From NCBI RefSeq assembly GCF_022414575.1, contig NZ_JADWYQ010000004.1:211921-275920 (forward strand): DNA of 64,000 nucleotides. Reading direction: 5' to 3'. A program made the position numbers and the translations under genes. Source of the stretch: Streptomyces sp. MUM 178J (GTDB lineage Bacteria > Actinomycetota > Actinomycetes > Streptomycetales > Streptomycetaceae). The notes below the pieces were generated by a model. That model was not told the DNA's origin. It worked only from the letters and a program-made list of their open reading frames with translations, and made no database searches. Below are positions 26,260 to 43,160 of this stretch, piece by piece (the first letter of the stretch is position 1; every line of letters begins with the position of its first letter).

Positions 26260-27117
26260 ATGGACATAGGAGTGGGCCTGCCCACCACAGTGCCGGACAT
26301 CGACGGCCGTCGGCTCGTCGACTGGGCGCGGCTGGCCGAGAACCACGGCTTCGCCAGCCTCGGCTGCCTCGACCGTCTGGTGTACGACAGCTACGAGCCG
26401 CTGACCTCGCTCGCCGCCGCGGCCGCGGTGACCGAGCAGATCCGGCTGACGACCTCCATCCTGATCGCCGCGTACCGGCCGGGCCCCGCGCTGCTGGCCA
26501 AACAGCTCGCCACCATCCACGAGATCTCCGGCGGACGGCTCACCGTCGGTGTGGCGGCAGGGGGCCGGGACGACGACTTCCGCGCCACCGGAGCGCCGTA
26601 CCACGACCGCGGCAAGCGCCTGGACGCCCTCCTCGGCGAACTCCGCGACGTGTGGAGCGGCAAGGGCCCGGTTCCCGGCATCGGCCCCTTTCCCCAGGGG
26701 GACGGCCCCGAGCTGATCGTCGGAGGCCACACCCCGGCCGCGATGGCCCGCGCGGCCCGCTTCGCCGACGGCTGGATCGCGGGCGGCAGCTCCGCCACCG
26801 CCTACGCGGACCTGGCCCGCCGGGCCCGCGAGGCCTGGCGGTCCCACGGCCGCACTGACGCCCCGCGGCTGGTGGCCCTGGTGTACGCCTGCCTGGGCCC
26901 CGGCGCCCGCGAGACAGCCGAGTCCTATCTGCGCGCGTACTACTCCTTCATCGGCCCCAAGGCGGAGATGGCGGCCAAGGCGGTCATCACCAACGCCTCC
27001 CAACTGCGCGACACCGCCGCCGCGTATGCGGAAGCGGGCTGCGAAGAACTGCTGGTGTTCCCCTGCACGGCCCAGGCCGGCCAGTTGGAACTCCTGGCAG
27101 CCGCGACGCTCGGTTGA
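26260..27117 (+). CDS. Luciferase-like (LLM class) oxidoreductase
   Basis: 285-aa TIM-barrel flavin- or F420-dependent oxidoreductase. Visible blocks are MDIGVGLPTTVP, LTTSILIAAYRPGPALLAKQ and VGGHTPAAMARAARFADGW. Such enzymes reduce or oxidise C-C bonds or perform monooxygenation in aromatic polyketide pathways. It is the last gene of the halogenase operon. The cofactor (FMN or F420) cannot be decided from the sequence. The hydrogenase island starts after the following 746-bp gap. Confidence 0.85.
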   Translation: MDIGVGLPTTVPDIDGRRLVDWARLAENHGFASLGCLDRLVYDSYEPLTSLAAAAAVTEQIRLTTSILIAAYRPGPALLAKQLATIHEISGGRLTVGVAAGGRDDDFRATGAPYHDRGKRLDALLGELRDVWSGKGPVPGIGPFPQGDGPELIVGGHTPAAMARAARFADGWIAGGSSATAYADLARRAREAWRSHGRTDAPRLVALVYACLGPGARETAESYLRAYYSFIGPKAEMAAKAVITNASQLRDTAAAYAEAGCEELLVFPCTAQAGQLELLAAATLG

Positions 27118-27283: not shown

Positions 27284-27300
27284 CGGGCGCCGCGCACCAA

Positions 27301-27328
27301 GGCCCCGCCGGGTGCACCCGGCGGGGCC
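27301..27328. terminator. Hairpin terminator
   Basis: Perfect 12-bp stem (27301-27312 with 27317-27328) around a TGCA loop. It lies downstream of the halogenase-to-LLM operon. Confidence 0.85.
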
Positions 27329-27863
27329 TCTTCGCCCCGTCGGCGCGCCCGCGAACTGCTCTCGCGGACCGGCCACGTGCGCCCGTGCCGCCGGTCCGCG
27401 CGGCGGCCTACGGAACGCGTGGGCGGCCCGCGCCCGGCAGGGTCGGGGCGCACACCGCGGACGGCGCGGCCGTACCCGGCCCGTATCGCGTCGCGGCTGC
27501 CGCCGCCGACATCCTGCGTCCGTGCGGACCGCGGGCCGACGGGCTTCCGCCTGACGCCGGGGGGAGACCGGCGTCGCATGTGATCCCCTCGGACGTCCGG
27601 TCGCTCGCTGGCGGGCCGGGGCCGTCACCGTCCCGTGCGGAAGAAGCGGCCGGCACGCCGCACGGACGGCAGCCTGTCCGCCACGGCCGGCGCGTCGACG
27701 CCTCAGGTGGTCCGGCCGCCCGGCAGCACGTGCGCGACCACGGGACGGCAGGCCGCCTGCCACGGCCGGGGAGCCGCAGCCCGCGGGTTGGGGCAGCGCC
27801 GCGGACGGCGCGGCGTGCAACGCCCGCCTCGGTTCTCAGCCGCACCCGGCCGGGGCGGTTTCG

Positions 27864-28949
27864 TCAGCAGATCCGCGGCAGTTGTTCGCCCAGGGGCAGA
27901 TCGATCACGCGGGTGCCGCCCAGACCGGTGCGGGAGACCACCATGCCCGGGTGTTCGGCGACGCACTCGCCGATCACGGCCGCGCCCGTGCCCAGCGGAT
28001 GGGCGCGCATCGCGGCGAGCACCGCGTCCGCCTCGGTGCGCGGGACGAAGGCCACCAGGCGCCCCTCGTTGGCGACGTACAGCGGGTCCAGGCCCAGGAA
28101 TCCGCACGCGCCCGCCACCGCCTCCGGGACGGGGACATGCCGCTCGACGAGGGCGACGCCCGTGCCCGAGGCCGCGGCGATCTCGTTGAGGGCCGTGCCC
28201 AGGCCGCCGCGCGTCGGGTCGCGCAGCACATGCACATCGCGGGTGACCGCGAGCATCGCCTCCACCAGGGAGCCCAGCGGCGCGGTGTCGCTCTCCACCT
28301 CCACCCCGAACTCCAGCCCCTCGCGCACGCTCATGATGGCGATGCCGTGCAGCCCGACCGGGCCGCTGACGATGACGACGTCCCCGGGAACGGCCCGCTG
28401 GGGGCGGATGTCCACCCCGTCCGGCACCAGCCCGATCCCCGAGGTGTTCACATACACGCCGTCGCCGTGCCCTGCCTCGACGACCTTGGTGTCGCCGGTG
28501 GCGATCACCACCCCGGCCGCCGCCGCTGCCGCCCCGATCGCGTCGGCGATCCGCCCCACGACCGGCAGCCCGACACCCTCCTCCAGGATGAAGGCGCATG
28601 ACAGATAGGCCGCACGGGCGCCGCTCATCGCCAGGTCGTTGACCGTGCCGTTGACCGCCAGGTCGCCGATGCTGCCGCCGGGGAAGAACAGCGGCCGTAC
28701 GACGAAGGAGTCGGTCGAGAACGCCAGCCGCGCCCCCGGCAGCGGCAGCACTGCCGAGTCCCCGAGGCCGCCGAGCGTCTCGTTGCCGTACGCGGGCGTG
28801 AACAGATGCCGGGTGAGCTCGCCCGACAGCGCGCCGCCGCCCCCGTGCCCCATGACCACCACGGGGTGGTCGCGCAGCGGCGCGGGGCAGGTCCAGCCGG
28901 CCGGGTCCAGAGCCGTCGGCTCCGGTACGGTGATCGTGGTCTCAGCCAA
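27864..28949 (-). CDS. hypE: Hydrogenase maturation protein HypE
   Basis: 361-aa AIR-synthase-like enzyme that dehydrates carbamoyl-thiocarboxamide on its C-terminal cysteine to make the CN ligands of the [NiFe] site. The essential tail PRIC is intact, and the ATP-binding GDTKVVE and NDLAMSGA blocks are present. The start is a TTG at 28949, set by an AGGAGG site and an 8-nt overlap with hypD; no ATG or GTG fits as well. It is the last gene of the leftward hyp operon. Confidence 0.93.
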
Positions 28950-30081
28950 CGGTCGTCGCCTCCTGGGCAGTCGCGGGCCGCCGCGCCGGGGCGTCCAGGC
29001 GGCGATAGAGGTAGTACGCGGCACAGGCCCCCTCGCTGGAGACCATCGTGGCCCCGAGCGGGGTGCGCGGGGTGCAGGCGACGCCGAACGCCTCGCACTC
29101 GTGCGGCTTGATCAGCCCCTGCAGCACCTCGCCGCTGCGGCACATCGTCGGCTCTGCGGTGTGCATCGACTCCACGTCGAAGCGGCGCTCCGCGTCGTAC
29201 TCCCAGAACGCCTCCGCGAGCCGCCAGCCGCTGCCGGGAATCACCCCGATGCCGCGCCACGCCCGGTCGGCGACCTCGAAGACCGCCTCGATCATGCGTA
29301 GCGCGACGGGGTTGCCCTCCTCGCGGACGGCCCGCGCATAGGCGTTCTCCACCCGGTGCTCACCGCGTTCGAGCTGCCGCACGGCCCGCCGGACCCCTTC
29401 CAGGATGTCCAGCGGCTCGAACCCCGTCACCACGATGGGCGCCTTGTGCCGCTCGGCGAGCGGCGGGTACTCCCGCGTGCCCATCACACTGCACACATGG
29501 CCCGCCGCCAGGAACGCCTGCACCCGGCAGTCCGGCGCGCCCATGATGGCCTCGACGGCCGGGGGAACCCGCACATGCGACACCAGCAGGCTGAAGTTGC
29601 GGACGCCCAGCCGCCGCGCCTCGTGCACGGTCATCGCGTTCGCGGGCGCCGTGGTCTCGAAGCCGATGCCGAAGAAGACGACCTCCTTCTCCGGGTGACG
29701 GCGGGCCAGTTCGAGCGCGTCCATCGGCGAGTACACCACCCGCACGTCCCCGCCCTCGCCGCGCACCCGGAACAGATCGCGGCCGGTGCCGGGCACACGC
29801 AGCATGTCGCCGAACGAACAGAAGATCACATCCGGTCGGGAGGCGATCTCCAGCGCCTTGTCGATCATCTCCAGCGGGGTCACGCACACCGGGCAGCCCG
29901 GGCCGTGGATCAACTCCACCGTGTCGGGCAGAAGCTGGTCGATGCCGTGCCGGATGATCGAGTGGGTCTGGCCGCCGCAGACCTCCATCAGCGCCCAGGG
30001 GCCGGTGACGGCCGTGGCGTGGATGTCGTCCAGCAGCCGGCGGGCGAGTTCGGGGTCGTGGAATTCTTCGATGTACTTCAC
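28942..30081 (-). CDS. hypD: Hydrogenase maturation protein HypD
   Basis: 379-aa iron-sulfur protein that, with HypC, assembles the Fe(CN)2CO unit. The motifs [26 protein letters not shown] and the C-terminal cysteine-rich [11 protein letters not shown] are all present. It starts with GTG overlapping the hypC stop (GTGA). The length is normal. Confidence 0.95.
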
Positions 30082-30410
30082 CGCGGCTCCTGAGGTGCGA
30101 GGGCCGCCGTCCGCCCGGCGGCCGGTTCGTCGGTCAGTCCGGCCTCGGCGGCCGCACGGCTCCAGGGGTCGCCGAACTCCTCCTCCAGCAGACCCAGTTC
30201 CCCGAAGAGCCGCAGCGAGGCCCGCGCGGACTCCTCGTCGAGCCGCTGCAGGGCGAAGCCGACATGGACGATGACGTACTCGCCCTCCTCCGCCTCGGGC
30301 ACATAGGCGAGGCAGACGTCCTTCACCACCCCGCCGAAGTCGACGCGCGCCATCTGCGTGCCGTCCCGTTCAAAGACCCCGACCACCTTGCCGGGCACCG
30401 CCAGGCACAT
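30078..30410 (-). CDS. hypC: Hydrogenase assembly chaperone HypC, extended
   Basis: 110-aa HypC/HupF chaperone. The conserved N-terminus MCLAVPGKV supplies the essential Cys2. The normal HypC fold ends near residue 80 ([14 protein letters not shown]), and about 30 further residues rich in Ala/Glu/Pro follow, a tail longer than usual. It binds HypD and then the large subunit. It lies 38 bp downstream of hypF. Confidence 0.92.
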
Positions 30411-30448
30411 GGTGTTCTCCGTTCGTCGCTGGTTCGTTGACTGGCCGT

Positions 30449-32863
30449 CTAGGTCGTGCCGTCCCGCCGCGCGGCCACGAGAAGCTGGCCCAGGGCGAGC
30501 CCTCCGTCGCCCGGCGGCACCTCGCCGTGGCGCAGCACGGTCAGTCCCGCGGCCCCCAGCCGTCCGGCGCACTCCTCGTCGAGCAGCGCATTGGCGAACA
30601 CGCCGCCGGTCAGGCCCACCGCCTCGGCCCCGGTCTCCCGGCGGGCCGCCAGACACACCTCGGTGACCGCCGCCGCCACCGCCCGGTGGAACCGCGCCGC
30701 CACGACCGGGGCGGGCGCCCCGCCGCGCAGGTCCGCGACCGCCGCCCGCAGGACGGGAGCGGGATCGATCAGGGTGACGCCACCGGGACCGGTCCCGCGC
30801 AGCCCGAAGCCGTACGCGCGTCCGTCGCCGTCCCACGCCCGCGCGGCGGCGGCCTCCAACTCGACGGCCGCCTGTGCCTCGTAGCCCGCCCGGTGGCACA
30901 CCCCGGCCAGGGAGGACACGGCGTCGAACAGCCGGCCCATGCTGGAGGTGGGGACGCAGGCGAGGCCCCGCTCCAGCTGACGTGCCAGCAGCCGCAGCTC
31001 ATCGGGCGCGCAGGCCGCGGTGCACGGCAGATCCGGGTCCCAGGCGACGCCGGCCGCACGCAGCCGGGCCAGCGCCATCCGGCAGGGGTTGGCCACGCCC
31101 GCGTCCCCGCCGGGCAGCGGGGCATAGGCGAGATGGGCGAGCCGCCGGTATCCGCGGTAGTCGGCCAGCAGCACCTCGCCGCCCCACACCGCGCCGTCGT
31201 CGCCGTAGCCGGTGCCGTCGAAGGCCACCCCGATGACGGGCGCGCTTCCGTCGAGGCCGTGCTCGGCCATGAGGGAGGCGACATGGGCGTGGTGGTGCTG
31301 CACGCGCCGCAGCGGCAACCCCGCCCCGGCCGCGCGGCGTGCGGCACGGCGCGCCGAGAGGTATCCCGGGTGGCGGTCGGCGGCCAGAAGTCCGGGGGCG
31401 ACGCCGGTCAGCTCCGTCAGCCGGCGCTCCGCGGCCTCGGCCGCCTCCGCCGTGGCGAGGTCCGCCATGTCGCCCACGTGGGGGGAGAACCACGCCTCGT
31501 GCCCCGCGCCGAGGCACAGCGTGTTCTTCAGGTCGCCGCCGACGGCCAGCGTCGGCGGGACGGCCGACGGCAGTGCGACGGGGGAGGGCGCATAGCCGCG
31601 TGAGCGGCGCAGCACCAGCACCCCGCCGTCGTCCGGGCGGAGACGGACCACGGAGTCGTCGCACGGCGCCGCGACGGCCCGGTCGTGCCAGAGCCAGGCG
31701 TCGGCGATCCCGGCGAGGCGGCGGACCGCATCGCCGTCATCGGTCACGATCGACTCGCCCGAGCGGTTGCCGCTGGTCATGACGAGCACGCGCGGGCCGG
31801 GTGGATCGCCGGGCAGCCCGAACAGCAGCCGGTGCAGCGGGGTGTACGGCAGCATCACCCCCACATGCGGACTGCCCGGGCAGACGCCCCCGGCCAGTCC
31901 CCGCTCCGCCGCGGCCCCGGCCGTGCGGCGGCGCAGCAGCACGATCGGACGGCGGCGGCCGGCCAGCACCGTGCGCTCCGCGGGACTGATGTGCGCGATC
32001 CGCTCCGCCGCGTCGAGGTCCGCGCACATGACCGCGAACGGCTTGCCGCCGCGCTCCTTTCGTGCGCGCAGCGCCTCCACGGCGGCCGGGTCGTCGGCGG
32101 CGCAGGCGAGGTGGTATCCGCCGAGGCCCTTGACCGCCAGGACCGCGCCCCGCGCCAGGAGCTCCCGCGCCCGGTCCAGGGCCTGCTCGCCCTGGCACTC
32201 GGGCCGCGCGCCGCGGGCGAGGGTGAGGCGGAGCCGCGGCCCGCAGTCGGGGCAGGCGACCGGCTGGGCGTGGAAGCGGCGGTCGGCCGGGTCCGCGTAC
32301 TCCCGTGCGCACAGCGGGCACAGCGGGAACGCGGCCATCGTGGTGGCGGCCCGGTCGTAGGGGAGGCCGGTCGCGATGGTGAAGCGAGGCCCGCAGTGCG
32401 TACAGGTGATGAAAGGGTGCCGGTGGCGGCGGTCCCCGGGGTCGGCCAGCTCTCTCAGGCAGTCGGCGCACACGGCGGTGTCGGGCGGGATCGCCGTCCT
32501 GGCGCTCCCGCCCCCGTCCACGGTGTCGTCCGAGGGCAGGATCGTGAAGTCTCGGCCGCCCGTGGCCCGTACGGGTTCCCAGTCGACTCCGGTCACGGCC
32601 GCCAGCGGCGGCTGCTCCTCCCGCAGCCGTCTGCAGAACTCCTCGACAGCCGCAGCCGGGCCCTCCACCTCGGCGGTGACGCCGTCCGTTCCGTTGCGGA
32701 CGAAGCCCGCCAGGGCGAGGCCCCTCGCCAGCCGGCACACGAACGGCCGGAAGCCCACGCCCTGCACCGTGCCGCGCACCCGGACCCGGAGGCGCACCGC
32801 CGTGCCCGGCGAGGCGTCGGCCTCGAGCGGGTCCGGCGCGGTGCGCGTCGGGGTGTCCTTCAC
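30449..32863 (-). CDS. hypF: Carbamoyltransferase HypF
   Basis: 804-aa, full length. Domains in order: acylphosphatase (VQGVGFRPFVCRLA near residue 35), two zinc fingers (CADCLRE to CTHCG, and CPLC to CPDCG), a YrdC/Sua5-like domain, and a Kae1-like carbamoyltransferase with HHHAHVASLMAEHGL. It uses carbamoyl phosphate and ATP to make the cyanide precursor for HypE. The GTG start overlaps the hypB stop. Confidence 0.95.
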   Translation of the reverse strand: MKDTPTRTAPDPLEADASPGTAVRLRVRVRGTVQGVGFRPFVCRLARGLALAGFVRNGTDGVTAEVEGPAAAVEEFCRRLREEQPPLAAVTGVDWEPVRATGGRDFTILPSDDTVDGGGSARTAIPPDTAVCADCLRELADPGDRRHRHPFITCTHCGPRFTIATGLPYDRAATTMAAFPLCPLCAREYADPADRRFHAQPVACPDCGPRLRLTLARGARPECQGEQALDRARELLARGAVLAVKGLGGYHLACAADDPAAVEALRARKERGGKPFAVMCADLDAAERIAHISPAERTVLAGRRRPIVLLRRRTAGAAAERGLAGGVCPGSPHVGVMLPYTPLHRLLFGLPGDPPGPRVLVMTSGNRSGESIVTDDGDAVRRLAGIADAWLWHDRAVAAPCDDSVVRLRPDDGGVLVLRRSRGYAPSPVALPSAVPPTLAVGGDLKNTLCLGAGHEAWFSPHVGDMADLATAEAAEAAERRLTELTGVAPGLLAADRHPGYLSARRAARRAAGAGLPLRRVQHHHAHVASLMAEHGLDGSAPVIGVAFDGTGYGDDGAVWGGEVLLADYRGYRRLAHLAYAPLPGGDAGVANPCRMALARLRAAGVAWDPDLPCTAACAPDELRLLARQLERGLACVPTSSMGRLFDAVSSLAGVCHRAGYEAQAAVELEAAAARAWDGDGRAYGFGLRGTGPGGVTLIDPAPVLRAAVADLRGGAPAPVVAARFHRAVAAAVTEVCLAARRETGAEAVGLTGGVFANALLDEECAGRLGAAGLTVLRHGEVPPGDGGLALGQLLVAARRDGTT

Positions 32864-33666
32864 AGGGCGGAGCCCGCGCCGACGGACCCGTGGCTGTGCG
32901 GTCGGCCGTCCGCACCGCGGCCGTGGCCGTGTTCTTGCCCGTGGTCATGGGCGTGGTCGTGGCCGTGGGCGCTCAGGTGCTCCGCGGCGAGCAGCGGACG
33001 GTGCGGCTCGGCCCCGTCGCACACCGCCGCCACCCGGTCCGTGAACGCGTCCACGCCCCGCCCGAGGCGGGCGCTGGTGCGCAGCACCTCCACGCCCGGG
33101 TTGATCCGCTCGACATGGGCCAGGAACTCCGCCTCGTCAAAGCAGACGGCCTCCGCCAGATCGGTCTTGGTCAGCACGACCAGGTGTGCCAGACCGAAGG
33201 CGGTCGGGTACTTGACCGGCTTGTCCTCGCCCTCGGTGACCGACATCAGCGCCACCCGGAGGGTCTCGCCGAGGTCGTAGGAGGCGGGGCAGACCAGATT
33301 GCCCACGTTCTCCACGAAGAGCGCCCGGATCCCGTCGGGCAGCCATCCCGTCACATGGGCGCGCAGCTGCGCGGCTTCCAGATGGCAGAGCCCGCCGGTC
33401 AGGAGCTGCTTGACGGGTGCGCCTGAGCGCGCCAGCCGGCGTGCGTCGTTCTCGGTCGCCAGGTCGGCGGTGAGCGCGGCCGCAGGCAGCCCGCGTTCGG
33501 CGGCCCGGCGCAGCACGTTCTCCAGCAGGGCGGTCTTGCCGCTGCCCGGGCTGGACAGCAGATTGACGGCCGTCACGCCCCTGGCCGCCAGTTCGGCGCG
33601 GAGACCGGCGGCCAGATCGTCGTTCTTGGCCAGTACGGCCTCGCGTAGCTCGACGCTGCGGCACAT
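32860..33666 (-). CDS. hypB: Ni-inserting GTPase HypB with C-terminal His-rich tail
   Basis: 268-aa SIMIBI GTPase that delivers nickel. P-loop SSPGSGKTAL is near residue 39, the metal-site GGLCHLEA near 103 and VLTKTDL for guanine recognition. The usual N-terminal histidine stretch is absent. Instead the last 35 residues carry about ten histidines (HGHDHAHDHGQEHGH, then HSHG), so the nickel store has moved to the C-terminus. It overlaps hypA by 1 nt and hypF by 4 nt. Confidence 0.94.
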   Translation of the reverse strand: MCRSVELREAVLAKNDDLAAGLRAELAARGVTAVNLLSSPGSGKTALLENVLRRAAERGLPAAALTADLATENDARRLARSGAPVKQLLTGGLCHLEAAQLRAHVTGWLPDGIRALFVENVGNLVCPASYDLGETLRVALMSVTEGEDKPVKYPTAFGLAHLVVLTKTDLAEAVCFDEAEFLAHVERINPGVEVLRTSARLGRGVDAFTDRVAAVCDGAEPHRPLLAAEHLSAHGHDHAHDHGQEHGHGRGADGRPHSHGSVGAGSAL

Positions 33667-34088
33667 CAGGCGTCCTCTTCTCTCCCCGCGGAACGGGGCG
33701 CGACCGGACAGGGCTCCCGGTCCGGCGGGCGTACGTCGTCGGGCTGCGCGAGCTGTACGCCGATCAGCTCCAGTTCGCGTCCGGCGAGCAGTCGTGCGGC
33801 GGGCCGCTCGCACCGCGGGCACCACAGCCGGGGCGGGGAGCCGACGGCGAACTCGGCGTCGCAGCCGTCGCACGCGGCGCGGGCGGGCACCTCCTCGACG
33901 ATCAGTTCCGCACCGGCCAGCGCGGTGCCTTCGGCGGCCAGCCGGAAGGAGAACCGCAGGGCGTCGCCGACCACGCCGGACAGTTCGCCGACGCGCAGCC
34001 GTACGGCGTCCACCGAGGCCGCACCATGTGCGCGTGCTGTCTCCTGGGCCCGCTCGACGACGGCTGCGGCGATCGACAGTTCGTGCAT
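33666..34088 (-). CDS. hypA: Nickel metallochaperone HypA
   Basis: 140-aa protein that begins MHELSIA, giving the nickel-binding His2. The zinc site is CDGC...CPRC near residues 72-93. The last 30 residues are longer and more polar than in typical HypA. It is the first gene of the leftward hyp operon, divergent from hypX across about 180 bp (34089-34269) that must hold both promoters; no clear -35/-10 was fixed. Confidence 0.93.
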   Translation of the reverse strand: MHELSIAAAVVERAQETARAHGAASVDAVRLRVGELSGVVGDALRFSFRLAAEGTALAGAELIVEEVPARAACDGCDAEFAVGSPPRLWCPRCERPAARLLAGRELELIGVQLAQPDDVRPPDREPCPVAPRSAGREEDA

Positions 34089-34269
34089 GGGTCCCCACGC
34101 TAGGCGTGGCGGGGCGCCGGCTTTCGGATGGCGTACGCGGGGCGGCCTCCGATTCCACCCGCTGGCCCAAACCCGGCGCGGTGTGCGGCGCGCCCGTGTC
34201 GTCGGCGGCGCCCCGGCGGCCACCATCGGCGGTCGGGAGCCGAGCCGAACGCCGATCCGAGGAGCCGTC

Positions 34270-35961
34270 ATGCGGGTGCTGCTGGTCGCCAGCGCGTTCA
34301 ACAGCCTGTCGCAGCGAGTCCAGTGCGAGCTGAGGGACCGGGGCCACGCCGTCTCGGTCGAGCTGGCCGGCCGCGGCGGGGTGCGTCCCGACGCCGTGGC
34401 CCGCCACGCCCCGGACCTCGTGGTCGCGCCGATGCTCACCGTCGCGATCCCCGAGGAGGTGTGGTCTACGTACACCTGTCTGATCGTGCATCCCGGTCCG
34501 CCGGGGGACAGGGGGCCGTCCTCCCTGGACCGCGCACTCCAGGGCGGCGTCGAACGGTGGGGGGTGACGGTACTTCAGGCGGTCGCGGAGATGGACGCCG
34601 GTCCCGTCTGGGCGTCGGCGGCCTTCGACGTGCCGGCGGGCGTCGGCAAGAGCGACCTCTACCGCGGCGAGGTCGCCGACGCTGCGGCGGAAGCGGTGCT
34701 CCTGGCTGTCGAACGCTTCTCCTCGGGGACATACGCACCGGCGCCGCAGTCTCCGGCTGCGGCCTCGGTGTTCCCGTATATGAGTCAGGAGGAGCGACGG
34801 ATCGACTGGCTGCGGGAGCCGACGTCCTCCGTGCTGCGCAGGCTGCGGGCCGCCGACTCCCATCCGGGCGTGCTCGACCGGCTCCTGGGAGGCGAGTGGT
34901 ATCTGTGCGGCGGCCATGAGGAGGACACCCTCACGGGACCGCCGGGCGAGCTGCTGGCCACCCGGCACGGGGCCGTGTGCCGGGCCACCGCCGACGGCGC
35001 GGTGTGGATTCCGCAGCTGCGGCCCAGGCGGGCTTCCGGCGGCCCGGCGACGTTCAAGCTCCCTGCGGCCCTGGCGCTCGGCGACCGGCTGCCGGCCGTT
35101 CCCGAGCTGCCCGGCCCGCTGCGGCCGCCTGCGGGGCGGAGCACCTGGTCGGACATCCGCTATGAGGAGCAGGGGGCGGTCGGGTTCCTGCGGTTCTCGT
35201 TCCCGGGCGGCGCGATGGGCGTCGACCACTGCCGCCGGCTGCTCGACGCCTACCGTGTGGCGCTGACCCGGCCGACGGACGTTCTGGTGCTGGGCGGGAG
35301 GCGCGACTTCTTCTCCAACGGCATCCATCTGGGCGTCATCGAGGCCGCGGCCGACCCCGCGGCGGAGTCGCGGGCGTGCATCGAGGCCATGGACGACCTG
35401 GTGGAGGCGGTGCTCACCACGACCGACCGGCTCGTCGTGGCCGCCCTGGCGGGCAACGCGGCGGCGGGCGGGGTGATGCTGGCGCTCGCCGCGGACGAGG
35501 TGTGGTGCAGATCCGGAAGTGTGCTCAACCCCCACTACCGGCTGATGGGCCTCACCGGCTCCGAGTTCTGGACGTACACGCTGCCGCGGCGGGTGGGCGC
35601 GGCGGCTGCCGGACGGCTGATGCGCGAGGCGGAGCCGGTGAGCGCCCGGGCCGCGCTGGGCCTGGGGCTCGTCGACCGGGTGGTGGAGTGCGGCCCGGAG
35701 GACTTCGCCGACCAGGTCGCCCGTTCGGCCGAGCGGCTCGCCTCGTCGGCCGCGCTGCGCTCCCGTGTCGGGGCGAAGAAGGCGGCCCGGGAGCGCGACG
35801 AGGCCGTCCGCCCGCTGAGCGACTGGCGGGCGGAGGAGCTGAAGCGCATGCGGGGCGTCTTCGACGACCCGGAGGCTCCGTATCACGCGCTGCGGTCGGC
35901 TTTTGTGCGCAAACAGCCCCGTCCCGGCGTGCCCACCACCCCAGACATGCCCGAATTGTGA
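34270..35961 (+). CDS. hypX: HypX (CO-ligand synthesis under aerobic conditions)
   Basis: 563-aa two-domain enzyme: an N-terminal formyl-THF hydrolase/transferase-like part (1 to about 270; HPGPPGDRGPSSLD) and a C-terminal enoyl-CoA hydratase-like part (about 290-550). HypX makes the CO ligand from formyl-tetrahydrofolate so that [NiFe] hydrogenases can mature in air, which fits an oxygen-tolerant enzyme in an aerobic actinomycete. Its last residues, TPDMPEL, recall the tail of the small protein at 40201. Confidence 0.92.
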   Translation: MRVLLVASAFNSLSQRVQCELRDRGHAVSVELAGRGGVRPDAVARHAPDLVVAPMLTVAIPEEVWSTYTCLIVHPGPPGDRGPSSLDRALQGGVERWGVTVLQAVAEMDAGPVWASAAFDVPAGVGKSDLYRGEVADAAAEAVLLAVERFSSGTYAPAPQSPAAASVFPYMSQEERRIDWLREPTSSVLRRLRAADSHPGVLDRLLGGEWYLCGGHEEDTLTGPPGELLATRHGAVCRATADGAVWIPQLRPRRASGGPATFKLPAALALGDRLPAVPELPGPLRPPAGRSTWSDIRYEEQGAVGFLRFSFPGGAMGVDHCRRLLDAYRVALTRPTDVLVLGGRRDFFSNGIHLGVIEAAADPAAESRACIEAMDDLVEAVLTTTDRLVVAALAGNAAAGGVMLALAADEVWCRSGSVLNPHYRLMGLTGSEFWTYTLPRRVGAAAAGRLMREAEPVSARAALGLGLVDRVVECGPEDFADQVARSAERLASSAALRSRVGAKKAARERDEAVRPLSDWRAEELKRMRGVFDDPEAPYHALRSAFVRKQPRPGVPTTPDMPEL

Positions 35962-36017
35962 GCATTGTTACGGCGTGAAAGCCTGCCGTAGAGGCCGTCG
36001 GCAGAAAGGAATCCGCC

Positions 36018-37085
36018 ATGAGCACGGGAACCGAGGCGTCGCTGAACGAGGCCGCCGCCTCCGTGGACGAGGTCCATATCCTGTGGACCTCGGAGGGGAT
36101 GAGCTGCGACGGGGACACGGTGTCGGTCACGGCAGCCTCGCTGCCCAGCCTGGAGGACGTCGTCCTCGGCGCGATCCCCGGCCTGCCGAAGGTCGTCCTG
36201 CACAACAAGGTCCTGGCGTACGAGAGCGGCGACGACTTCATGGCGGCCTTCCACCGGGCGGCCCGTGACGAGCTGGGCCCCTTTGTGCTCGTCGTGGAGG
36301 GCTCCATCCCCAATGAGCGTGTCAACGGCGACGGCTACTGGGCGGCGATGGGCAACGATCCGAAAACCGGGGAGCCCATCACCTTCAACACCTGGCTCGA
36401 CCGGCTGGCGCCCAAGGCGTTCGCCGTCGTGGCCGTCGGCACCTGCGCCGCCTACGGCGGAATCCACGCCATGGCCGGCAACCCCACCGGCTCGATGGGC
36501 CTTGCCGACTATCTGGGCTGGGACTTCCGCTCGGCCGCGGGCATGCCGATCGTGAACGTGCCGGGCTGCCCCGTCCAGCCCGACAACTTCATGGAGACGC
36601 TCACCTGGCTGCTCTACCAGGCGGCGGGCCTCGCTCCGCCGCTTCCGCTCGACGAACAGCTGCGGCCCACCTGGCTGTTCGGCAAGACTGTCCACGAGGG
36701 GTGCGACCGCGCCGCCTACTACGAGCAGGGCGACTTCGCCAAGGACTACAACTCCCCCAAATGCCAGGTGAAGATCGGCTGCTGGGGGCCCGTGGTGAAC
36801 TGCAACGTCACCAAGCGCGGCTGGATGGACGGCGTCGGCGGCTGCCCCAACGTCGGAGGCATCTGCATCGGCTGCACCATGCCGGGCTTCCCCGACAAGT
36901 TCATGCCCTTCATGGACGAGGCGCCCGGCGCCAGCATCTCCTCCAGCATCCTCTCCTCCTCGTACGGCCCGCTCATCCGGTCCCTGCGCGCCATCACCAA
37001 CAAGGCGGCCAACCGCGAACCCAAGTGGCGGCACGACCGCGAGCTCGTCACCTCCGGCTACAACCCCCGCTGGCCGCACCGCTGA
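36018..37085 (+). CDS. hhyS: [NiFe]-hydrogenase small subunit (group 1h type)
   Basis: 355-aa electron-transfer subunit. There is no Tat signal, so it stays cytoplasmic as in group 1h (group 5) enzymes. Near the N-terminus the proximal-cluster motif reads C30-D-G-D33 in place of the usual C-x-x-C; an aspartate cluster ligand is reported for high-affinity actinobacterial-type enzymes. Other cluster ligands are in GTCAAYGG, PGCPV, and the C-rich KIGCWGPVVNCN / GGCPNVGGICIGCTMPGF region. It oxidises H2, probably at atmospheric level, together with the next gene. Confidence 0.94.
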   Translation: MSTGTEASLNEAAASVDEVHILWTSEGMSCDGDTVSVTAASLPSLEDVVLGAIPGLPKVVLHNKVLAYESGDDFMAAFHRAARDELGPFVLVVEGSIPNERVNGDGYWAAMGNDPKTGEPITFNTWLDRLAPKAFAVVAVGTCAAYGGIHAMAGNPTGSMGLADYLGWDFRSAAGMPIVNVPGCPVQPDNFMETLTWLLYQAAGLAPPLPLDEQLRPTWLFGKTVHEGCDRAAYYEQGDFAKDYNSPKCQVKIGCWGPVVNCNVTKRGWMDGVGGCPNVGGICIGCTMPGFPDKFMPFMDEAPGASISSSILSSSYGPLIRSLRAITNKAANREPKWRHDRELVTSGYNPRWPHR

Positions 37086-37133
37086 CCCGCTTCCGCCCGC
37101 CCCCGCCGAAGACCGCCCCGGAAAGGACCGTCC

Positions 37134-38921
37134 GTGTCGAGCGAGACCCTCGTGCCGTCCCAGCAGCGTGAACTGACCGACGTCGCGTTTGACCCCATCA
37201 CCAGGATCGTCGGCAACCTGGGCATCTACACGAAGATCGACTTTCCGCGCCGGGAAGTCGTCGAATGCCGCAGCACCTCGTCCATCTTCCGCGGCTACAG
37301 CGTCTTCATGAAGGGCAAGGACCCCCGGGACGCCCACTTCATCACCAGCCGCATCTGCGGCATCTGCGGCGACAACCACGCCACCTGCTCCGTCTACGCC
37401 CAGAACATGGCCTACGGGGTCAAGCCCCCGCCGCTCGCGGACTGGATCATCAACCTCGGCGAAGCCGCCGAGTACATGTTCGACCACACGATCTTCCAGG
37501 ACAACATGGTCTTCGTCGACTACTGCGAACGCATGGTCAAGGAGACCAACCCGGGGGTGTGGGAACGCGCCGAGCGCACCCCCGCGCCACGCGCCGACCG
37601 GCACGGCCTGCGCACCATCGGCGAGATCATGGCCTCGTACAACCCCTTCGAGGGGAGCACGTACAAGGAAGCCCTCGAGATGAGCCGGCTCACCCGGGAG
37701 ATGATCTGCCTGATGGAGGGCCGGCACGTCCACCCCTCCACGCTCTACCCAGGCGGCGTCGGCACCGTCGCCACCCCGCAGGTCTTCACCGACTACCTCG
37801 TCCGGCTCACCCGCTGCCTCGACTTCATCAAGCGCGCGGTCGCCATGAACGACGACGTCTTCGACTTCTTCTACGAGGCCCTGCCCGGCTACGAGGAGGT
37901 CGGCCGCCGCCGTACGCTGCTCGGCTGCTGGGGCGCCTTCCAGGACCCGGAGGTCGTCGACTACGACTACCGGACGATGAACACCTGGGGCAACGCCATG
38001 TTCGTCACCCCCGGCATCGTCGTCGACAACCAGCTCGTCACCACCGACCTGGTCGACATCAACCTGGGCATGCGCATCCTGCTGGGCAGCTCGTACTACG
38101 AGGACTGGGAGGGCGAGGAGACCTTCGTCGACACCGACCCCCTGGGCAATCCCGTCGACCGGCGCCACCCCTGGAACCAGACCACGCTGCCCGCGCCGCA
38201 GAAGCGGGACCTCAACGGCGGAAACTACAGCTGGGTGATGAGCCCCCGCTGGTACGACAAGCGCACCGGCGACCATCTCGCGCTGGACACCGGCGGCGGA
38301 CCCATCGCCCGCCTGTGGGCCACCGCGCTCGCCGACAAGGTCCGCACCCCGTACGTCCGTTCCACCGGGCACAGCGTGGAGATCGACCTGCCCAGGACGC
38401 CGTCGAGCCCCGAAGTGCGCCTGGAGTGGAAGCCGCCCGCCTTCCCCAACACCATCGAACGCAACCGCGCCCGCATGTACTTCGTCGCCTACGCCGCCGG
38501 GATGGCGCTGCACTTCGTCGACAAGGCCCTGGGCGAGGTGCGGGCCGGGCGCACCAAGGTCTTCCAGGACTTCACCGTCCCCTCCGACGGCATCGGCGTC
38601 GGCTTCCACGAGGCCGTCCGCGGAGTCCTCTCGCACCACCTGGTGATCCGCGACCGGAAGATCGCCAACTACCACCCGTATCCGCCCACCCCGTGGAACG
38701 CCAGCCCCCGAGACAGCTACGGAACGCCGGGCCCGTACGAGGACGCCGTACAGGGCTGCCCCATCTTCGAGGAGAACGGCCCCGACGGCTTCAAGGGCAT
38801 CGACATCATGCGCACCGTGCGCAGCTTTGACCCCTGTCTGCCCTGCGGCGTCCATATGTACCTCGGCGGCGGACGCACCCTGAAGCAGTCCCACTCGCCG
38901 ACCTTCGGCGCACACTCCTGA
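37134..38921 (+). CDS. hhyL: [NiFe]-hydrogenase large subunit (group 1h type)
   Basis: 595-aa catalytic subunit. The N-terminal nickel motif is RIC75GIC78GDNH82 and the C-terminal one is DPC568LPC571GVH574. A 21-residue tail follows His574 and would be removed by the protease encoded at 42184. The GTG at 37134 has an AAAGGA site; the gene is 48 bp after the small subunit. With the Asp-ligand small subunit and the accessory set, this fits the high-affinity uptake enzymes that let Streptomyces scavenge trace H2. Confidence 0.95.
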   Translation: MSSETLVPSQQRELTDVAFDPITRIVGNLGIYTKIDFPRREVVECRSTSSIFRGYSVFMKGKDPRDAHFITSRICGICGDNHATCSVYAQNMAYGVKPPPLADWIINLGEAAEYMFDHTIFQDNMVFVDYCERMVKETNPGVWERAERTPAPRADRHGLRTIGEIMASYNPFEGSTYKEALEMSRLTREMICLMEGRHVHPSTLYPGGVGTVATPQVFTDYLVRLTRCLDFIKRAVAMNDDVFDFFYEALPGYEEVGRRRTLLGCWGAFQDPEVVDYDYRTMNTWGNAMFVTPGIVVDNQLVTTDLVDINLGMRILLGSSYYEDWEGEETFVDTDPLGNPVDRRHPWNQTTLPAPQKRDLNGGNYSWVMSPRWYDKRTGDHLALDTGGGPIARLWATALADKVRTPYVRSTGHSVEIDLPRTPSSPEVRLEWKPPAFPNTIERNRARMYFVAYAAGMALHFVDKALGEVRAGRTKVFQDFTVPSDGIGVGFHEAVRGVLSHHLVIRDRKIANYHPYPPTPWNASPRDSYGTPGPYEDAVQGCPIFEENGPDGFKGIDIMRTVRSFDPCLPCGVHMYLGGGRTLKQSHSPTFGAHS

Positions 38922-38933
38922 AGGGAGGCGGCC

Positions 38934-39497
38934 ATGCCCTGGGACGAGGAAGCAGCCCGCCGGCACGTCGTCAGGACCGAGCAGCAGCTCGCCGCCCTGG
39001 ACTCCCTCCCGGACCATGCGGCGGCCGCCCGTGCCCGCGAGGCCGTGCAGGCGCTGGTGGACCTGTACGGAGAGTGCCTTGCGAGGATCACGGCACAGCT
39101 CGGCGAGGCGGACGGGCAGGCGGTCCGTCGGCTGGCCGGCGACCCGCTCGTCGGCCATCTGCTCCTGGTGCACGACCTCCACCCCGACCCGGTCACCAGC
39201 CGCATCGGGGCCGTACTCGCCGAACTGCGGCCGGCGCTCGGCGGCGGCGAGGCCGAACTCCTCGCCGTCGAAGGGCCGGTGGCACGGCTCCGGCTCACCG
39301 AGGGCGGCGCTTCGGGCGGCTGCGGCTGCTCCCCGGACGGGCGGCCCGACGACATGGTGCGGGACGCGGTCCTGGGGCGCGCCCCGGAGATCGAACAGGT
39401 CGAGATCGAGACCGTGCGGGCCGCCGCTCCGCAGGCCGTGATCCCCGTCGCCGACCTCTTCCGCGGTCCCGCCCTCGCAGTGCGGGAGGCGGGGTGA
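38934..39497 (+). CDS. NifU-like protein of the hydrogenase locus
   Basis: 187-aa protein: an N-terminal helical region (1 to about 85), then a NifU-C-like domain with GGASGGCGCSPDG near residue 125-135 and VEIETV toward the end. It may help deliver iron-sulfur clusters to the small subunit. The true NifU CxxC is changed to a C-G-C arrangement. It starts 12 bp after the large subunit gene and its stop overlaps the next start. Confidence 0.78.
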   Translation: MPWDEEAARRHVVRTEQQLAALDSLPDHAAAARAREAVQALVDLYGECLARITAQLGEADGQAVRRLAGDPLVGHLLLVHDLHPDPVTSRIGAVLAELRPALGGGEAELLAVEGPVARLRLTEGGASGGCGCSPDGRPDDMVRDAVLGRAPEIEQVEIETVRAAAPQAVIPVADLFRGPALAVREAG

Positions 39498-40216
39498 CCA
39501 CGCCCCGGGCCTTCGCGGCCCCCCGGCTGCGCCGACTGGCGGCCCGCGCGGGCCCGTCCCCCGGCGGCGCCTCGCACAGAACGCACGAAGTGTGCGACCT
39601 GTGCGCCCAGCCGATCCCACCGGACCACCGGCACCTGCTCGAGGCAGGCAGCGGCGACATCGCCTGCGGCTGCCCCGCCTGCGCACTGCTGTTCGATCGC
39701 GCGGACGCCGAAGGGGCCCGCTACCGGCTGGTCCCGGACACCCGCAGACGGCTGGACGGACGCGTCATCGACGACGCGACCTGGGCCGGTCTCGGCATCC
39801 CCGTCGGCCTGGCCTTCTTCACCCGGCCCTCGGGCTCCGACGCGGTGCACGCCGCGTACCCCAGCCCGCTGGGCCTGATGCGCTCCGTCGTCGCCCCGGA
39901 GAGCTGGGCCTCAGCCGAGGCCGCCTGCCCCGCCCTGGCCGCCATGACCCCCGATGTGGAGGCCCTGCTGGTCAACCGGGTGCACTCAGAGCCCCGGCAC
40001 TGGCTCGTCCCCCTGGACGACTGCTACCGCCTCGCGGCGCTGGTGCGCGCACACTGGAAGGGACTGGGCGGGGGAGACGAGGTCTGGCAGCAGGTCGACG
40101 GATTCTTCCAGGCACTCACACCAGGCCCCGCCGCGCGCGGCGCGGGCCATACCGGCCCCGCATCCGGCGAGGGCCCCGCACACGACACCCAGGAGGCGTC
40201 ATGGGCATCACCGTAG
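39494..40216 (+). CDS. DUF5947-like hydrogenase-associated protein
   Basis: 240-aa protein of unknown function. It has a zinc-ribbon-like beginning (CDLC near residue 34, then CGCPAC near 56) and later two conserved-looking blocks, PVGLAFF and YPSPLG. It resembles the DUF5947 proteins that accompany actinobacterial group 1h hydrogenases. GTG start, overlapping the NifU-like stop. The C-terminal tail (after about 215) is low-complexity and overlaps the next gene by 16 nt. It may be a metallo-chaperone or electron-transfer partner. Confidence 0.7.
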   Translation: MTTPRAFAAPRLRRLAARAGPSPGGASHRTHEVCDLCAQPIPPDHRHLLEAGSGDIACGCPACALLFDRADAEGARYRLVPDTRRRLDGRVIDDATWAGLGIPVGLAFFTRPSGSDAVHAAYPSPLGLMRSVVAPESWASAEAACPALAAMTPDVEALLVNRVHSEPRHWLVPLDDCYRLAALVRAHWKGLGGGDEVWQQVDGFFQALTPGPAARGAGHTGPASGEGPAHDTQEASWASP

Positions 40217-40407
40217 GCAAGCCCGACGTCCGCGTGGACAAGGCGGCACACGTCCCCGGCGTCCGCCGGGGCAACCATCAGGGACTCGGCAAACACCAGC
40301 CGGGACACCGGCGCGACGACACCTCCACCGCACGCCGCTCGACCGGCATCAACGCCAGGCGCCACGACCCGATCATGCCCGACATGCCGAACCTGTCGCC
40401 CGCATGA
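40201..40407 (+). CDS. Small basic His-rich protein, hydrogenase locus
   Basis: 68-aa hydrophilic protein rich in Arg, His, Gly and Asp, without a membrane segment. It ends PDMPNLSPA, sharing the PDMP-x-L block with the C-terminus of HypX (PDMPEL). It starts 16 nt before the end of the preceding gene, and its stop overlaps the next ATG. It lies between two locus-specific genes, so it is probably a real component, perhaps a small assembly factor; no function is known to me. Confidence 0.7.
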   Translation: MGITVGKPDVRVDKAAHVPGVRRGNHQGLGKHQPGHRRDDTSTARRSTGINARRHDPIMPDMPNLSPA

Positions 40408-41120
40408 CGGCCGCCGCCCAGCAGGCGACCGGGCCCCTCGGGGCCGACGGCGGCGCGACCGCCCCGGCGCCCGAACTGACCTTCGCCGTCACCGGGGTCG
40501 AGCCGGAGCGCCACGCCGCCGTTCCCACCCTGCGCTTCACACTGCGGACGGCCCGCAGCGGCGGCGGGCCCGTCAGGGCCGTGGCGCTCACGGTCGCCGT
40601 CCGCATCGAGGTGACCCGCCGCGCCCACGACCCCGTCGCCTGCCGGGCGCTGACCGAACTGTTCGGACAGCCGGAGGAGTGGGGCCGGACCATGCGGCCG
40701 CTGCTGTGGACTCAGGCCGCGGTACAGGTGCCGCCGTTCGACGAGCAGACCTCCGTACCGCTGCTGGTGCCGTGCGCCACCGACGCCGAACTGGCCGTGA
40801 CCAAGTATCTGCGCGCCGCCGGGGACGGCGAGGTGCCGCTCGGCTTCCTCTTCAACGGCACGGTCTTCTACCAGGCCCCCGGCCCAGTGCCGGCGCCCGG
40901 CATGCTGCGCACCGCGCACATCCCCTGGTCCGCCGAGGCGTCCTGCCGGCTGCCCGCAGGGCTCTGGCCCCGGCTCGTCGAGCGGTACCACGGGACGGAC
41001 CCCTGGCTGCGGCTGCCCCGGGAGACCTGTGACCGGCTGGACGCCTACCGCGCACACCACGCACTGGGCAGCACCGACGACGCGGTGCGCGCCCTGCTCG
41101 ACCGATCGGGAGCACCATGA
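40404..41120 (+). CDS. DUF6084-like hydrogenase-associated protein
   Basis: 238-aa soluble protein with a beta-rich N-terminal half (alternating strands to about residue 140) and a C-terminal half containing YHGTDPWLRLPRET. It resembles the DUF6084 family. No metal motif or active site is visible. ATGA overlaps at both ends place it in the hydrogenase operon; a structural or assembly role is likely but unproven. Confidence 0.65.
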   Translation: MTAAAQQATGPLGADGGATAPAPELTFAVTGVEPERHAAVPTLRFTLRTARSGGGPVRAVALTVAVRIEVTRRAHDPVACRALTELFGQPEEWGRTMRPLLWTQAAVQVPPFDEQTSVPLLVPCATDAELAVTKYLRAAGDGEVPLGFLFNGTVFYQAPGPVPAPGMLRTAHIPWSAEASCRLPAGLWPRLVERYHGTDPWLRLPRETCDRLDAYRAHHALGSTDDAVRALLDRSGAP

Positions 41121-42187
41121 ACGACCCGGCAGTGCCCACCGCCGTCGACGCCATCGCCCGCACCTGCCTGTACGAGGGCTATCTGCTGTGGCCCTACCGC
41201 AGGTCCGCGCTGAAGAACGCCAAACGCTGGACGTTCGGCGGGGTCTTCCCCCGGGGGGACTGCGCCGAGACGCTCGGCGAACGGGACGGCGTCACCGCCC
41301 AGGTGCTCCTGGAGCACGTCCGCCCGCCGTACGAGGTGACGGTGCGTCTGAGGTTTCTGCACGTCGTGGACCGCACGGTCTGGCGGGAAGGCCCCGAGGG
41401 GCCCGAACGGGCAGACGCGCTCACCGTCGCCGGCGAGCGCCATGTGACCTGGCAGGAGGCGACCGAGCGGGACGTCCTGCTCGCACTCTCCGTGCCCGGC
41501 GACGGCCCGCGCACCACGTCCTTCGACATCCCCGAGGGCTCCGACACCGAGCCCCTCGCCGACACCCGGGGACGGCGGGCGGGCAGCGTCGTCCACAGCT
41601 GGCGGCGGCTGACGGGCACGCTCACGGCCGACAGCGAGCCCCTCGCGCCCGGCGTGGACCGGCTGACCGTCCGCGTGGTGAACACCTCGGACTGCCCGCC
41701 GCCCCGACCCGGAGACCGGCACGCCCGGGAGCGCGCCGCCGGCAGCGCCTTCGCCTCCACACATCTGATCCTGCACAGCGACCAGGGCCGGTTCGTCTCC
41801 CAGCTGGACCCTCCGGAGGAACTCCGTCAGACCGCCGCGGCCTGCGTCAACGACGGCGTCTGGCCGGTCCTCGCGGGGGAGCCGGGCGGCGCCGACGGCC
41901 GACGGGCGCACACCGTACTCGCCTCCCCCATCACGCTGTACGACTTCCCCGCAGTGGCCCCGGAGAGCCCCGGCGACCTCTTCGACGGCACGGAGATCGA
42001 CCAGCTGCTCGTCCTGAGCGTGCTCAGCATGACCGAGGAGGAGCAGGCCGAGGCCCGCGCCTGCGACCCCCGGGCCCGCGAGATCCTCGACCGCTGCGCC
42101 GGACTCGGCCTGGACGAGCTGGCCCGGTTGCACGGCGCGATCCGGGAGTTCCGCCCCGCGGCCCCGCAGCCGAGGGAGGACGCGTGA
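41117..42187 (+). CDS. Conserved hydrogenase-associated protein of unknown function
   Basis: 356-aa soluble protein beginning with a short helical region (VDAIARTCLYEGYLLWPYR), then a long beta-rich domain (HVTWQEATERDV, VVNTSDCPPP) and a C-terminal helical segment with MTEEEQAEARACDPRAREIL. I recognise no enzyme motif. It is translationally coupled on both sides. Its neighbours suggest it belongs to the actinobacterial group 1h accessory set. Confidence 0.65.
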   Translation: MNDPAVPTAVDAIARTCLYEGYLLWPYRRSALKNAKRWTFGGVFPRGDCAETLGERDGVTAQVLLEHVRPPYEVTVRLRFLHVVDRTVWREGPEGPERADALTVAGERHVTWQEATERDVLLALSVPGDGPRTTSFDIPEGSDTEPLADTRGRRAGSVVHSWRRLTGTLTADSEPLAPGVDRLTVRVVNTSDCPPPRPGDRHARERAAGSAFASTHLILHSDQGRFVSQLDPPEELRQTAAACVNDGVWPVLAGEPGGADGRRAHTVLASPITLYDFPAVAPESPGDLFDGTEIDQLLVLSVLSMTEEEQAEARACDPRAREILDRCAGLGLDELARLHGAIREFRPAAPQPREDA

Positions 42188-42987
42188 GCGACCGGCCGCG
42201 GACGGTGCTCGTGGACGGCGTCCCCGTCGGACGGGGCAGCCGTGTCCGGCTGAGGCCGTCCCGCAGGGCCGACATCCTCGATCTGGCGCTCACCGGCCGG
42301 GAGGCCGAGGTCGACGCGATCGAGGAGGACCTCGAGGGACAGCTCCACCTGGCCGTGCTCGTCCGGGACGACCCCGGCCGCGACCTGGGGGCGAGCGGCA
42401 AGATCGGCCACCGCTTCTTCTTCACACCGGAGGAGGTGGAGCCGTTGGAGCCCCGCGGCGGCGGCGCGCCCCCTCGGGTGCTGGTCGCGGGCATCGGCAA
42501 CATGTTCCTCGCCGACGACGGCTTCGGCCCCGAGGTCGTCGCCGCGCTCCGGGAGCGGCCGACTCCGCCCGGCGTGCACCTCGTGGACTTCGGCATCCGG
42601 GGGATGGACCTGGCCTACCGGCTGCTCGACGGCTACTCCGCCGCACTGCTCGTGGACGCGGCCCCGCGCGGGGAGCGGCCCGGCACGCTCAGCGTCATCG
42701 AGCCCGACCTCCCGCCGGAGACCGCCATGCCGGAGGCCCACGCCATGGACCCGGTCCGGGTGCTCGCCCTGGCCCGGAGGCTGGGCGACGGCACGCTGCC
42801 ACGCGTCCTGGTCCTCGGCTGCGAACCCGAGGTGCGCATGACGGGCGAGGAACCCGATGTCGTCGTCGGTCTGAGCGTCCCCGTGACGGAGGCCGTGTCA
42901 CGGGCCGTGCCGCTCGTCGAGTCCCTCGTCGCCGAACTGCTTGAACAGACATCCGTCCCCGACGCAGGAAAGGCAGCAGCCCCATGA
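42184..42987 (+). CDS. Hydrogenase maturation protease with extra N-terminal domain
   Basis: 267-aa protein. The C-terminal part (from about residue 97) is a HycI/HybD-type endopeptidase: GIGNMFLADDGFGPEVV with the nickel-sensing Asp, then LVDFGIRG. It would cut the tail of the large subunit after His574. The first 95 residues are an additional small beta-rich domain (VLVDGVPVGRGSRVRLRP..., ending HRFFFTPEEVEPLE), not part of ordinary proteases. GTG start overlapping the previous stop. Confidence 0.85.
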   Translation: MSDRPRTVLVDGVPVGRGSRVRLRPSRRADILDLALTGREAEVDAIEEDLEGQLHLAVLVRDDPGRDLGASGKIGHRFFFTPEEVEPLEPRGGGAPPRVLVAGIGNMFLADDGFGPEVVAALRERPTPPGVHLVDFGIRGMDLAYRLLDGYSAALLVDAAPRGERPGTLSVIEPDLPPETAMPEAHAMDPVRVLALARRLGDGTLPRVLVLGCEPEVRMTGEEPDVVVGLSVPVTEAVSRAVPLVESLVAELLEQTSVPDAGKAAAP

Positions 42988-43115
42988 AGAACGGCATCTT
43001 CATCCCCGCCTCCGTCGTCCGCCTCGCCGTCGGCGCCCTGGCGGTCGCGGTGACCGCCATCGTCGTCGCGGAACTGCCCGAGGCGTGGCGCTACTACAAG
43101 ATGGAGACGATGTGA
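42984..43115 (+). CDS. 43-aa single-pass membrane peptide, hydrogenase locus
   Basis: A short gene reading MKNGIFIPASVVRLAVG, then a hydrophobic helix (about residues 9-31) and the tail LPEAWRYYKMETM. Its ATG overlaps the protease stop (ATGA), and a strong terminator follows 5 bp after its stop, so it is the last gene of the hydrogenase operon. It could anchor the cytoplasmic hydrogenase to the membrane or quinone pool. It resembles small DUF6893-type proteins, but I am not certain of the family. Confidence 0.72.
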   Translation: MKNGIFIPASVVRLAVGALAVAVTAIVVAELPEAWRYYKMETM

Positions 43116-43119: not shown

Positions 43120-43160
43120 GCAGGGGCCCGGACGCCCGCGGAGGGCGCCCGGGCCCCTGC
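43120..43160. terminator. Strong hairpin terminator at the right end of the hydrogenase island
   Basis: A long, nearly continuous stem (GCAGGGGCCCGG at 43120-43131 pairs with 43149-43160, with an inner CGCCC/GGGCG helix). It also lies beyond the end of the minus-strand FAD monooxygenase gene. Confidence 0.88.

Follow-up and report, generated by a model that had tools for sequence, protein, structure and literature searches.

What is a complete hydrogenase locus doing in the middle of an aromatic polyketide gene cluster? The question is raised by a stretch of 64,000 nucleotides from Streptomyces sp. MUM 178J (NCBI RefSeq assembly GCF_022414575.1, contig NZ_JADWYQ010000004.1, positions 211,921 to 275,920; hereafter the window), in which a [NiFe]-hydrogenase island at 27864-43115 is enclosed by the genes of a type II polyketide synthase (PKS) cluster. 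An earlier reading made from the letters alone (the sequence-only reading) had left two explanations side by side, namely insertion of one module into the other and a selected association between H2 oxidation and the polyketide pathway. The comparisons reported here uphold the former: the PKS cluster exists without the island in five genomes, the cassette exists elsewhere without this PKS, and the two arms are one cluster. A group 1h-like cassette of ~15.3 kb was very probably inserted, with an inversion, into an existing pentangular-type PKS cluster in a lineage from which both this strain and Streptomyces sp. PR69 descend, and probably works independently of that cluster. As far as sequence comparison reaches, the elements of this account are established, i.e. 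a complete cassette, a single PKS cluster on both sides of it, island-free clusters, the cassette at other places, the inversion, the site shared with PR69 and purifying selection; we infer in addition that the cassette runs its own programme.

Gene calls for the island and its flanks are based on Pfam profile scans, which give the island the following composition.

27864..29024, minus strand: hypE (Pfam AIRS and AIRS_C)
28942..30081, minus strand: hypD (Pfam HypD, 500 bits)
30078..30410, minus strand: hypC (Pfam HupF_HypC; start estimated from the domain start)
30449..32863, minus strand: hypF (Pfam HypF domains, acylphosphatase and YrdC)
32860..33675, minus strand: hypB (Pfam cobW/HypB; start approximate)
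33666..34091, minus strand: hypA (Pfam HypA, 106.6 bits)
34092..34266, unstranded: divergent control region of the cassette, its hypA-proximal block conserved in 6 aligned islands
34267..35961, plus strand: hypX (Pfam Formyl_trans_N/C and ECH_1, i.e. formyltransferase and enoyl-CoA-hydratase domains)
36018..37085, plus strand: hhyS, small subunit (Pfam; 5aa5_A, 591.8 bits)
37134..38921, plus strand: hhyL, large subunit (Pfam; 5aa5_C, 1028 bits)
38934..39497, plus strand: accessory open reading frame (ORF), weakly NifU-like (Pfam NifU, E 0.004, below cut-off), found at the same place in other islands
39494..40216, plus strand: DUF5947 accessory gene (Pfam)
~40401..41120, plus strand: DUF6084 accessory gene (Pfam; start approximate)
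41117..42187, plus strand: family-less accessory ORF that recurs in other hydrogenase loci
42184..42987, plus strand: hydrogenase maturation protease (Pfam HycI; TIGR00072 over its cut-off)
42984..43115, plus strand: DUF6893 small protein, the last gene of the island (Pfam)

Pfam agrees with the layout first read from the letters, in which hypEDCFBA runs leftward and hypX, the subunit genes and the accessory genes run rightward within a compact 15-kb island, and the outer limits proposed for it coincide with the end of hypE (27864) and the stop of the DUF6893 gene (43115). The ORF at 41117-42187 has no match in Pfam or NCBIfam. In a genome-wide search with PF00374, HhyL is the sole [NiFe] large subunit above the family cut-off, and one further match, at 22.1 bits, lies below it.

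The enzyme had been labelled group 1h-type, an assignment supported by similarity and by locus content. Against solved structures, HhyL scores 1028 bits with 5aa5 (next best 163) and HhyS 592 bits (next best 156), and both align with it almost end to end. The L1/L2 cysteine motifs of HhyL, RICGICGDNHATC and DPCLPCGVH, are identical in this structure, whose source we take to be Ralstonia eutropha, as is the CDGD stretch of HhyS near the proximal cluster, the aspartate of which is presumably a cluster ligand in 5aa5. The locus contains hypA-F, the maturation protease gene and the DUF5947, DUF6084 and DUF6893 genes found by Pfam, the DUF genes being, on our assumption, markers of group 1h. All NCBIfam hydrogenase subunit models scored under their cut-offs, so that the label rests on similarity and locus content.

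The polyketide genes around the island, which include ketosynthase (KSalpha), chain length factor (CLF), ketoreductase (KR), FAD monooxygenase (FMO), O-methyltransferase (OMT) and glycosyltransferase (GT) genes, are arranged as follows.

40..17525, unstranded: left part, with KSalpha, CLF, cyclase, KR, carboxylase, multicopper oxidases and MFS
17714..27117, plus strand: left tailoring block, with MMPL, FMO1, halogenase-like, PTR2, OMT1 and luciferase-like (LUX) genes, the same in sister clusters
43179..51648, unstranded: right tailoring block, with FMO2, OMT2, FMO3, OMT3, MarR, an ORF and a Na/H exchanger
51951..61376, unstranded: right part, with ferredoxin, P450, TENA, AsnB, GT, multicopper oxidase, dehydrogenase and SCP2, also present in sister clusters

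Polyketide tailoring genes were thus correctly placed on both sides of the island, and Pfam finds O-methyltransferases at all three positions named for them (25224, 44812 and 48113). It had been conceded that the case would fall if the genes to the right of 43179 belonged to a cluster of their own. A query with the CLF protein gave 99 relatives in named genomes, with 80 loci kept; that survey spans ~10 kb on each side of CLF, which is too short for the island (PR69 shows none in it), and was left unused, and the proteins encoded in the window were compared with longer stretches from PR69 and eight others. The halogenase, PTR2, OMT1 and LUX genes directly abut the Na/H exchanger in S. qinglanensis, S. 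smyrnaeus, S. spirodelae and S. albus NRRL B-1811; the exchanger is followed by the ORF, MarR, OMT3, FMO3, OMT2 and FMO2, and then by P450, TENA, AsnB and GT, and no hydrogenase gene lies within the PKS cluster of any of these four sisters. The most similar island-free cluster, that of genome G260 (KSalpha 87%, P450 93%, AsnB 91%), also has both arms. Since the arms form one cluster in the four named sisters and in G260, the genes to the right of 43179 are not a separate cluster, and the proposed comparison with related genomes yields the same PKS cluster without the island in five of them. The clusters of S. smaragdinus, S. fildesensis and Streptacidiphilus anmyonensis are more distant and show no hydrogenase gene in the stretches fetched, the S. 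iconiensis contig stops inside LUX, and none of the nine island-free PKS records matches the island DNA over more than 500 bp.

The island is found at the same site, between LUX and FMO2, in Streptomyces sp. PR69 (NZ_JAOWCB010000005.1), with 91.7% DNA identity and with the same PKS, junctions and orientation of the right block. This block, from FMO2 to the Na/H exchanger (43179-51648, 8.5 kb), is turned around in both strains when compared to the four named sisters; S. fildesensis and S. anmyonensis, so far as they have parts of it, agree in orientation with the sisters, and S. smaragdinus and G260 with the window. Given the common site and the block inverted in both strains relative to the sisters, the shortest account of the locus would be a single insertion plus a single inversion that preceded the divergence of the window strain from PR69. 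In G260 (C1:900001-980000) both tailoring half-blocks are inverted together, so that the cluster region looks prone to rearrangement.

Ratios of nonsynonymous to synonymous substitutions (dN/dS), calculated for gene pairs of the window and PR69, are 0.061 for hhyL, 0.147 for hhyS, 0.150 for hypE and 0.161 for hypD, and 0.30-0.37 for the faster accessory genes (the ORFs at 38934-39497 and 41117-42187 and the measured part of the protease, the HycI value covering part of the gene). The rows for HypA, o39592 and DUF6084 were void, their reading frame or extent being wrong, and some other values may be too high because of overlong ORF starts (e.g. OMT2, FMO2 and NaH). The PKS genes span a dS of 0.049-0.297, and that of hhyL, hypE and hypD, at 0.126-0.139 (0.126-0.214 with hhyS), lies inside this span and therefore places the island before the split. 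Judged from these substitution rates, the island is older than the divergence of the two strains and is kept under purifying selection.

The same cassette also exists elsewhere, as the sequence-only reading had asked to be checked: four sampled genomes (G058, G018, G045 and G327) carry it in the same gene order without this PKS. That of G327 is the closest after PR69 among the matches listed (HhyL 94%; island DNA 79.5%) and is separated by 486 kb from a PKS cyclase with 85% identity. The cassette order is seen also in G433, G256 and G398, but with no hypX between hypA and hhyS. A midpoint-rooted tree built from 45 HhyL sequences places the window and PR69 with G327 (support 0.91) and then with G058 (0.695), within a Streptomyces cassette clade of support 0.997; outside it fall the HhyL copies of S. 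qinglanensis, S. smyrnaeus and S. spirodelae, each encoded on a contig other than that of the PKS. HhyL occurs in 67 of the 150 sampled genomes of the genus. For 24 of the 29 HhyL genomes in this sample that are assembled into five contigs or fewer, the gene maps to the outer 20% of the chromosome (lengths rounded). The outer chromosome region is rich in secondary-metabolite clusters. Two or three HhyL copies are found in G321, G236 and G151, G236 having a cassette-type HhyL (89%) and one of another type (73%) on a single contig.

Both edges of the island are convergent gene ends with hairpins.

27300..27329, unstranded: left-edge palindrome/hairpin (-35 kcal/mol, z -4.2)
43120..43160, unstranded: right-edge palindrome/hairpin (-47.7 kcal/mol, z -5.3)

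Another hairpin, a very strong one (51885-51950; -51.1 kcal/mol, z -6.6), separates the Na/H exchanger gene from the ferredoxin gene at the far end of the inverted block. Within the cassette, the divergent control region is conserved on its hypA-proximal side, and four of the six islands aligned for it lie outside this PKS; G058 was excluded from this alignment, as an extra gene lies in between. The left edge also bears an element resembling a miniature inverted-repeat transposable element (27124-27283, with 18-bp terminal inverted repeats), of which a second copy, 96% alike, is found in the genome at G000:C6:29503-29663, and weaker relatives (75-77%) in L096 and L054. As the agent of insertion it was rejected, because PR69 carries the island nearly without the element. 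Repeats common to the breakpoint stretches (27118-27863, 42988-43178 and 51649-51990) were likewise discarded, the longest match being 14 bases.

Could the nesting nevertheless have been selected, with H2 oxidation giving reductant or energy to a late-growth polyketide pathway and the arrangement being kept for co-expression? The intact arrangement in two species and the several oxidoreductases of the pathway speak for it, as do other hydrogenase-PKS neighbours, at 7 kb in G041 and at 40-52 kb in G433, G256 and G398. Co-location kept across several species had been named as the sign of a functional link; the island is found in this PKS only in the close relative PR69, not in independent lineages, and five related clusters do without it. 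Across the 150 genomes, whose lists are complete and from which cyclase rows with E above 1e-45 were dropped, 56 of the 67 HhyL genomes also have a strong cyclase match, and hydrogenase and cyclase lie within 60 kb of each other in two of 67 pairs (G041, 7 kb; the window, 31 kb), against 0.95 expected from uniform placement. Co-location is therefore near chance, the observed count being a lower bound since only 33 of the 67 pairs share a contig. Moreover, the island edges are convergent and carry hairpins, its control region is common to cassettes outside this PKS, and enzymes of this hydrogenase type, as far as is known, feed respiration. In S. avermitilis spores, according to passages of PMC4767420, elevated H2 lowered the expression of relA and of antibiotic-related genes. 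On this evidence a selected association, the second proposal of the sequence-only reading, is improbable. The neighbours that speak for it belong to other PKS families, and three of them to one HhyL sub-clade, so they are taken as a lead and not as support: G433, G256 and G398 (L203-L214) have the cassette near a spore-pigment-like type II PKS cyclase, and the G041 locus (L179-L181; G041:C227, ~16750-41627) is of another HhyL type, its hhyL match being split over two frames with one stop, i.e. broken or mis-assembled.

It might also be that the hydrogenase occupied its chromosomal place first and that the PKS cluster was assembled around it, for both kinds of block, hydrogenase and PKS, move over evolutionary time and the neighbouring PKS block is inverted. 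The contiguity of the PKS arms in five relatives, however, means that the cluster was a single unit in the absence of the island, which makes this order of events very improbable. A chromosomal place common to the window and the hydrogenase regions of G433, G256 and G398 was sought in the 80 kb to the left of the window, with no DNA match at E 1e-20. An assembly chimera, or two separate clusters abutting at 43179, is conceivable in a draft genome of 127 contigs; with the same junctions on both sides in the separate PR69 assembly, and with both sides forming one cluster in relatives, it is scarcely credible.

Insertion of the cassette into the existing cluster, which is the account preferred here, has to be set against several observations that weigh in the other direction. 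Within the cassette clade, at least four of the 17 genomes among the matches listed for 392 genomes (the window being one of the four) carry a type II PKS cyclase at a distance of 60 kb or less, and in G041 another hydrogenase is the direct neighbour of a spore-pigment-like type II PKS. Two of the cassettes described as free of this PKS are less clean than the others, as the G018 contig is 24 kb, so that its flanks are seen short, and in G045 a ketosynthase match, distant at 29%, lies ~12 kb from the cassette. The rearrangement in G260 means that the ancestral junction is not preserved there, and sequence comparison gives no order of insertion and inversion. Finally, no agent of insertion, whether an integrase gene, repeats at the edges or another, was recognised at the island, and PR69 matches the left-edge inverted-repeat element of the window over just 33 bp.

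The products of the cassette probably scavenge trace H2 independently of the polyketide genes. HypA-F and HypX would build the Ni-Fe site, the protease would trim HhyL, and HhySL would oxidise trace H2 and pass the electrons to respiration, probably in late growth or in spores; the polyketide genes would run separately, and the neighbourhood would be a by-product of insertion. In S. avermitilis, as given in passages of PMC4767420, deletion of hhySL abolished H2 uptake and lowered spore viability. A bolder idea, which we consider a long shot, is that the captured hydrogenase is now a functional part of the cluster, whereby trace H2 energises or tunes late formation of the pentangular polyketide, and that the G041, G433, G256 and G398 loci are instances of a wider connection between the scavenging of H2 and the aromatic polyketides of sporulating cells. 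If such an association were true, the locus would offer a genetic means of asking whether secondary metabolism draws on trace H2.

The locus provides a clean natural example of an energy-metabolism cassette embedded intact at the centre of an antibiotic-type gene cluster, in which the island-free clusters, the cassette elsewhere and the linked inversion are all visible. It cautions that genes inside a predicted cluster boundary may not belong to the pathway, and shows that in Streptomyces this type of hydrogenase acts as a compact module. A hydrogenase nested in a polyketide cluster is not reported in any of the literature matches listed, which cover few subscription journals. The word "hydrogenase" is absent from the main text, as far as accessible, of a genome-mining study of 193 xantholipin-like clusters (PMC13200232), and, by term counts, from the accessible main texts of PMC9469721 and PMC9327801.

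The host cluster itself extends beyond the window on its left, where an acyl carrier protein (ACP; PP-binding domain at G000:C4:210594-210791) lies 1.1 kb away, adjoined by a PF04673 cyclase and, further left, by a thioesterase and a SARP-like regulator; on the right, the window ends with the contig. KS domains are located at 2871-4478 and 4334-5770, and KSalpha, CLF, ACP and cyclases, the components that define a type II PKS, are all present. To the left of the PKS genes is also a YcaO-family protein of 758 aa (L133:9274-11550), perhaps of a neighbouring cluster. The mixture of KSalpha, CLF, cyclases, KR, halogenase-like enzyme, P450, AsnB-like enzyme, FMOs, OMTs and GT fits a pentangular polyphenol as the product, and the solved structures nearest to FMO3 (45952-48099) are RubL and GrhO5. 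Three multicopper oxidases (625-2685, 12953-15493 and 57424-59196) occur in this one aromatic polyketide cluster, and S. qinglanensis, S. smyrnaeus and S. spirodelae have matches to all three; a literature search for pentangular clusters with a multicopper oxidase gave no match.

Compared to known systems, the parts of this locus are ordinary and their arrangement is unusual. Clusters of the xantholipin type are recognised, in the available text of PMC13200232, by co-located homologues of XanO2 (P450), XanH (halogenase), XanO4 (FAD monooxygenase) and XanF (KSalpha), and all four are present here at the level of enzyme class, but FMO3 is nearest, among solved structures, to RubL and GrhO5. With the xantholipin, lysolipin, albofungin and rubromycin-type clusters it has in common KSalpha, CLF, ACP, cyclases, a halogenase-like enzyme, FAD monooxygenases, a P450, an AsnB-like amidotransferase and O-methyltransferases, while the three multicopper oxidases and the glycosyltransferase set it apart (xan, llp and rub being likened by gene content). 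Among Streptomyces hydrogenases, HhyL is 86-94% identical to the cassette clade, compared to 72-78% for the others among the matches listed. The locus resembles that of S. avermitilis hhySL in its structural genes with auxiliary genes and hypX, so far as the passages of PMC4767420 describe it; unlike the S. avermitilis and 5aa5 systems, it has hypX between hypA and hhyS and forms one island inside a PKS cluster.

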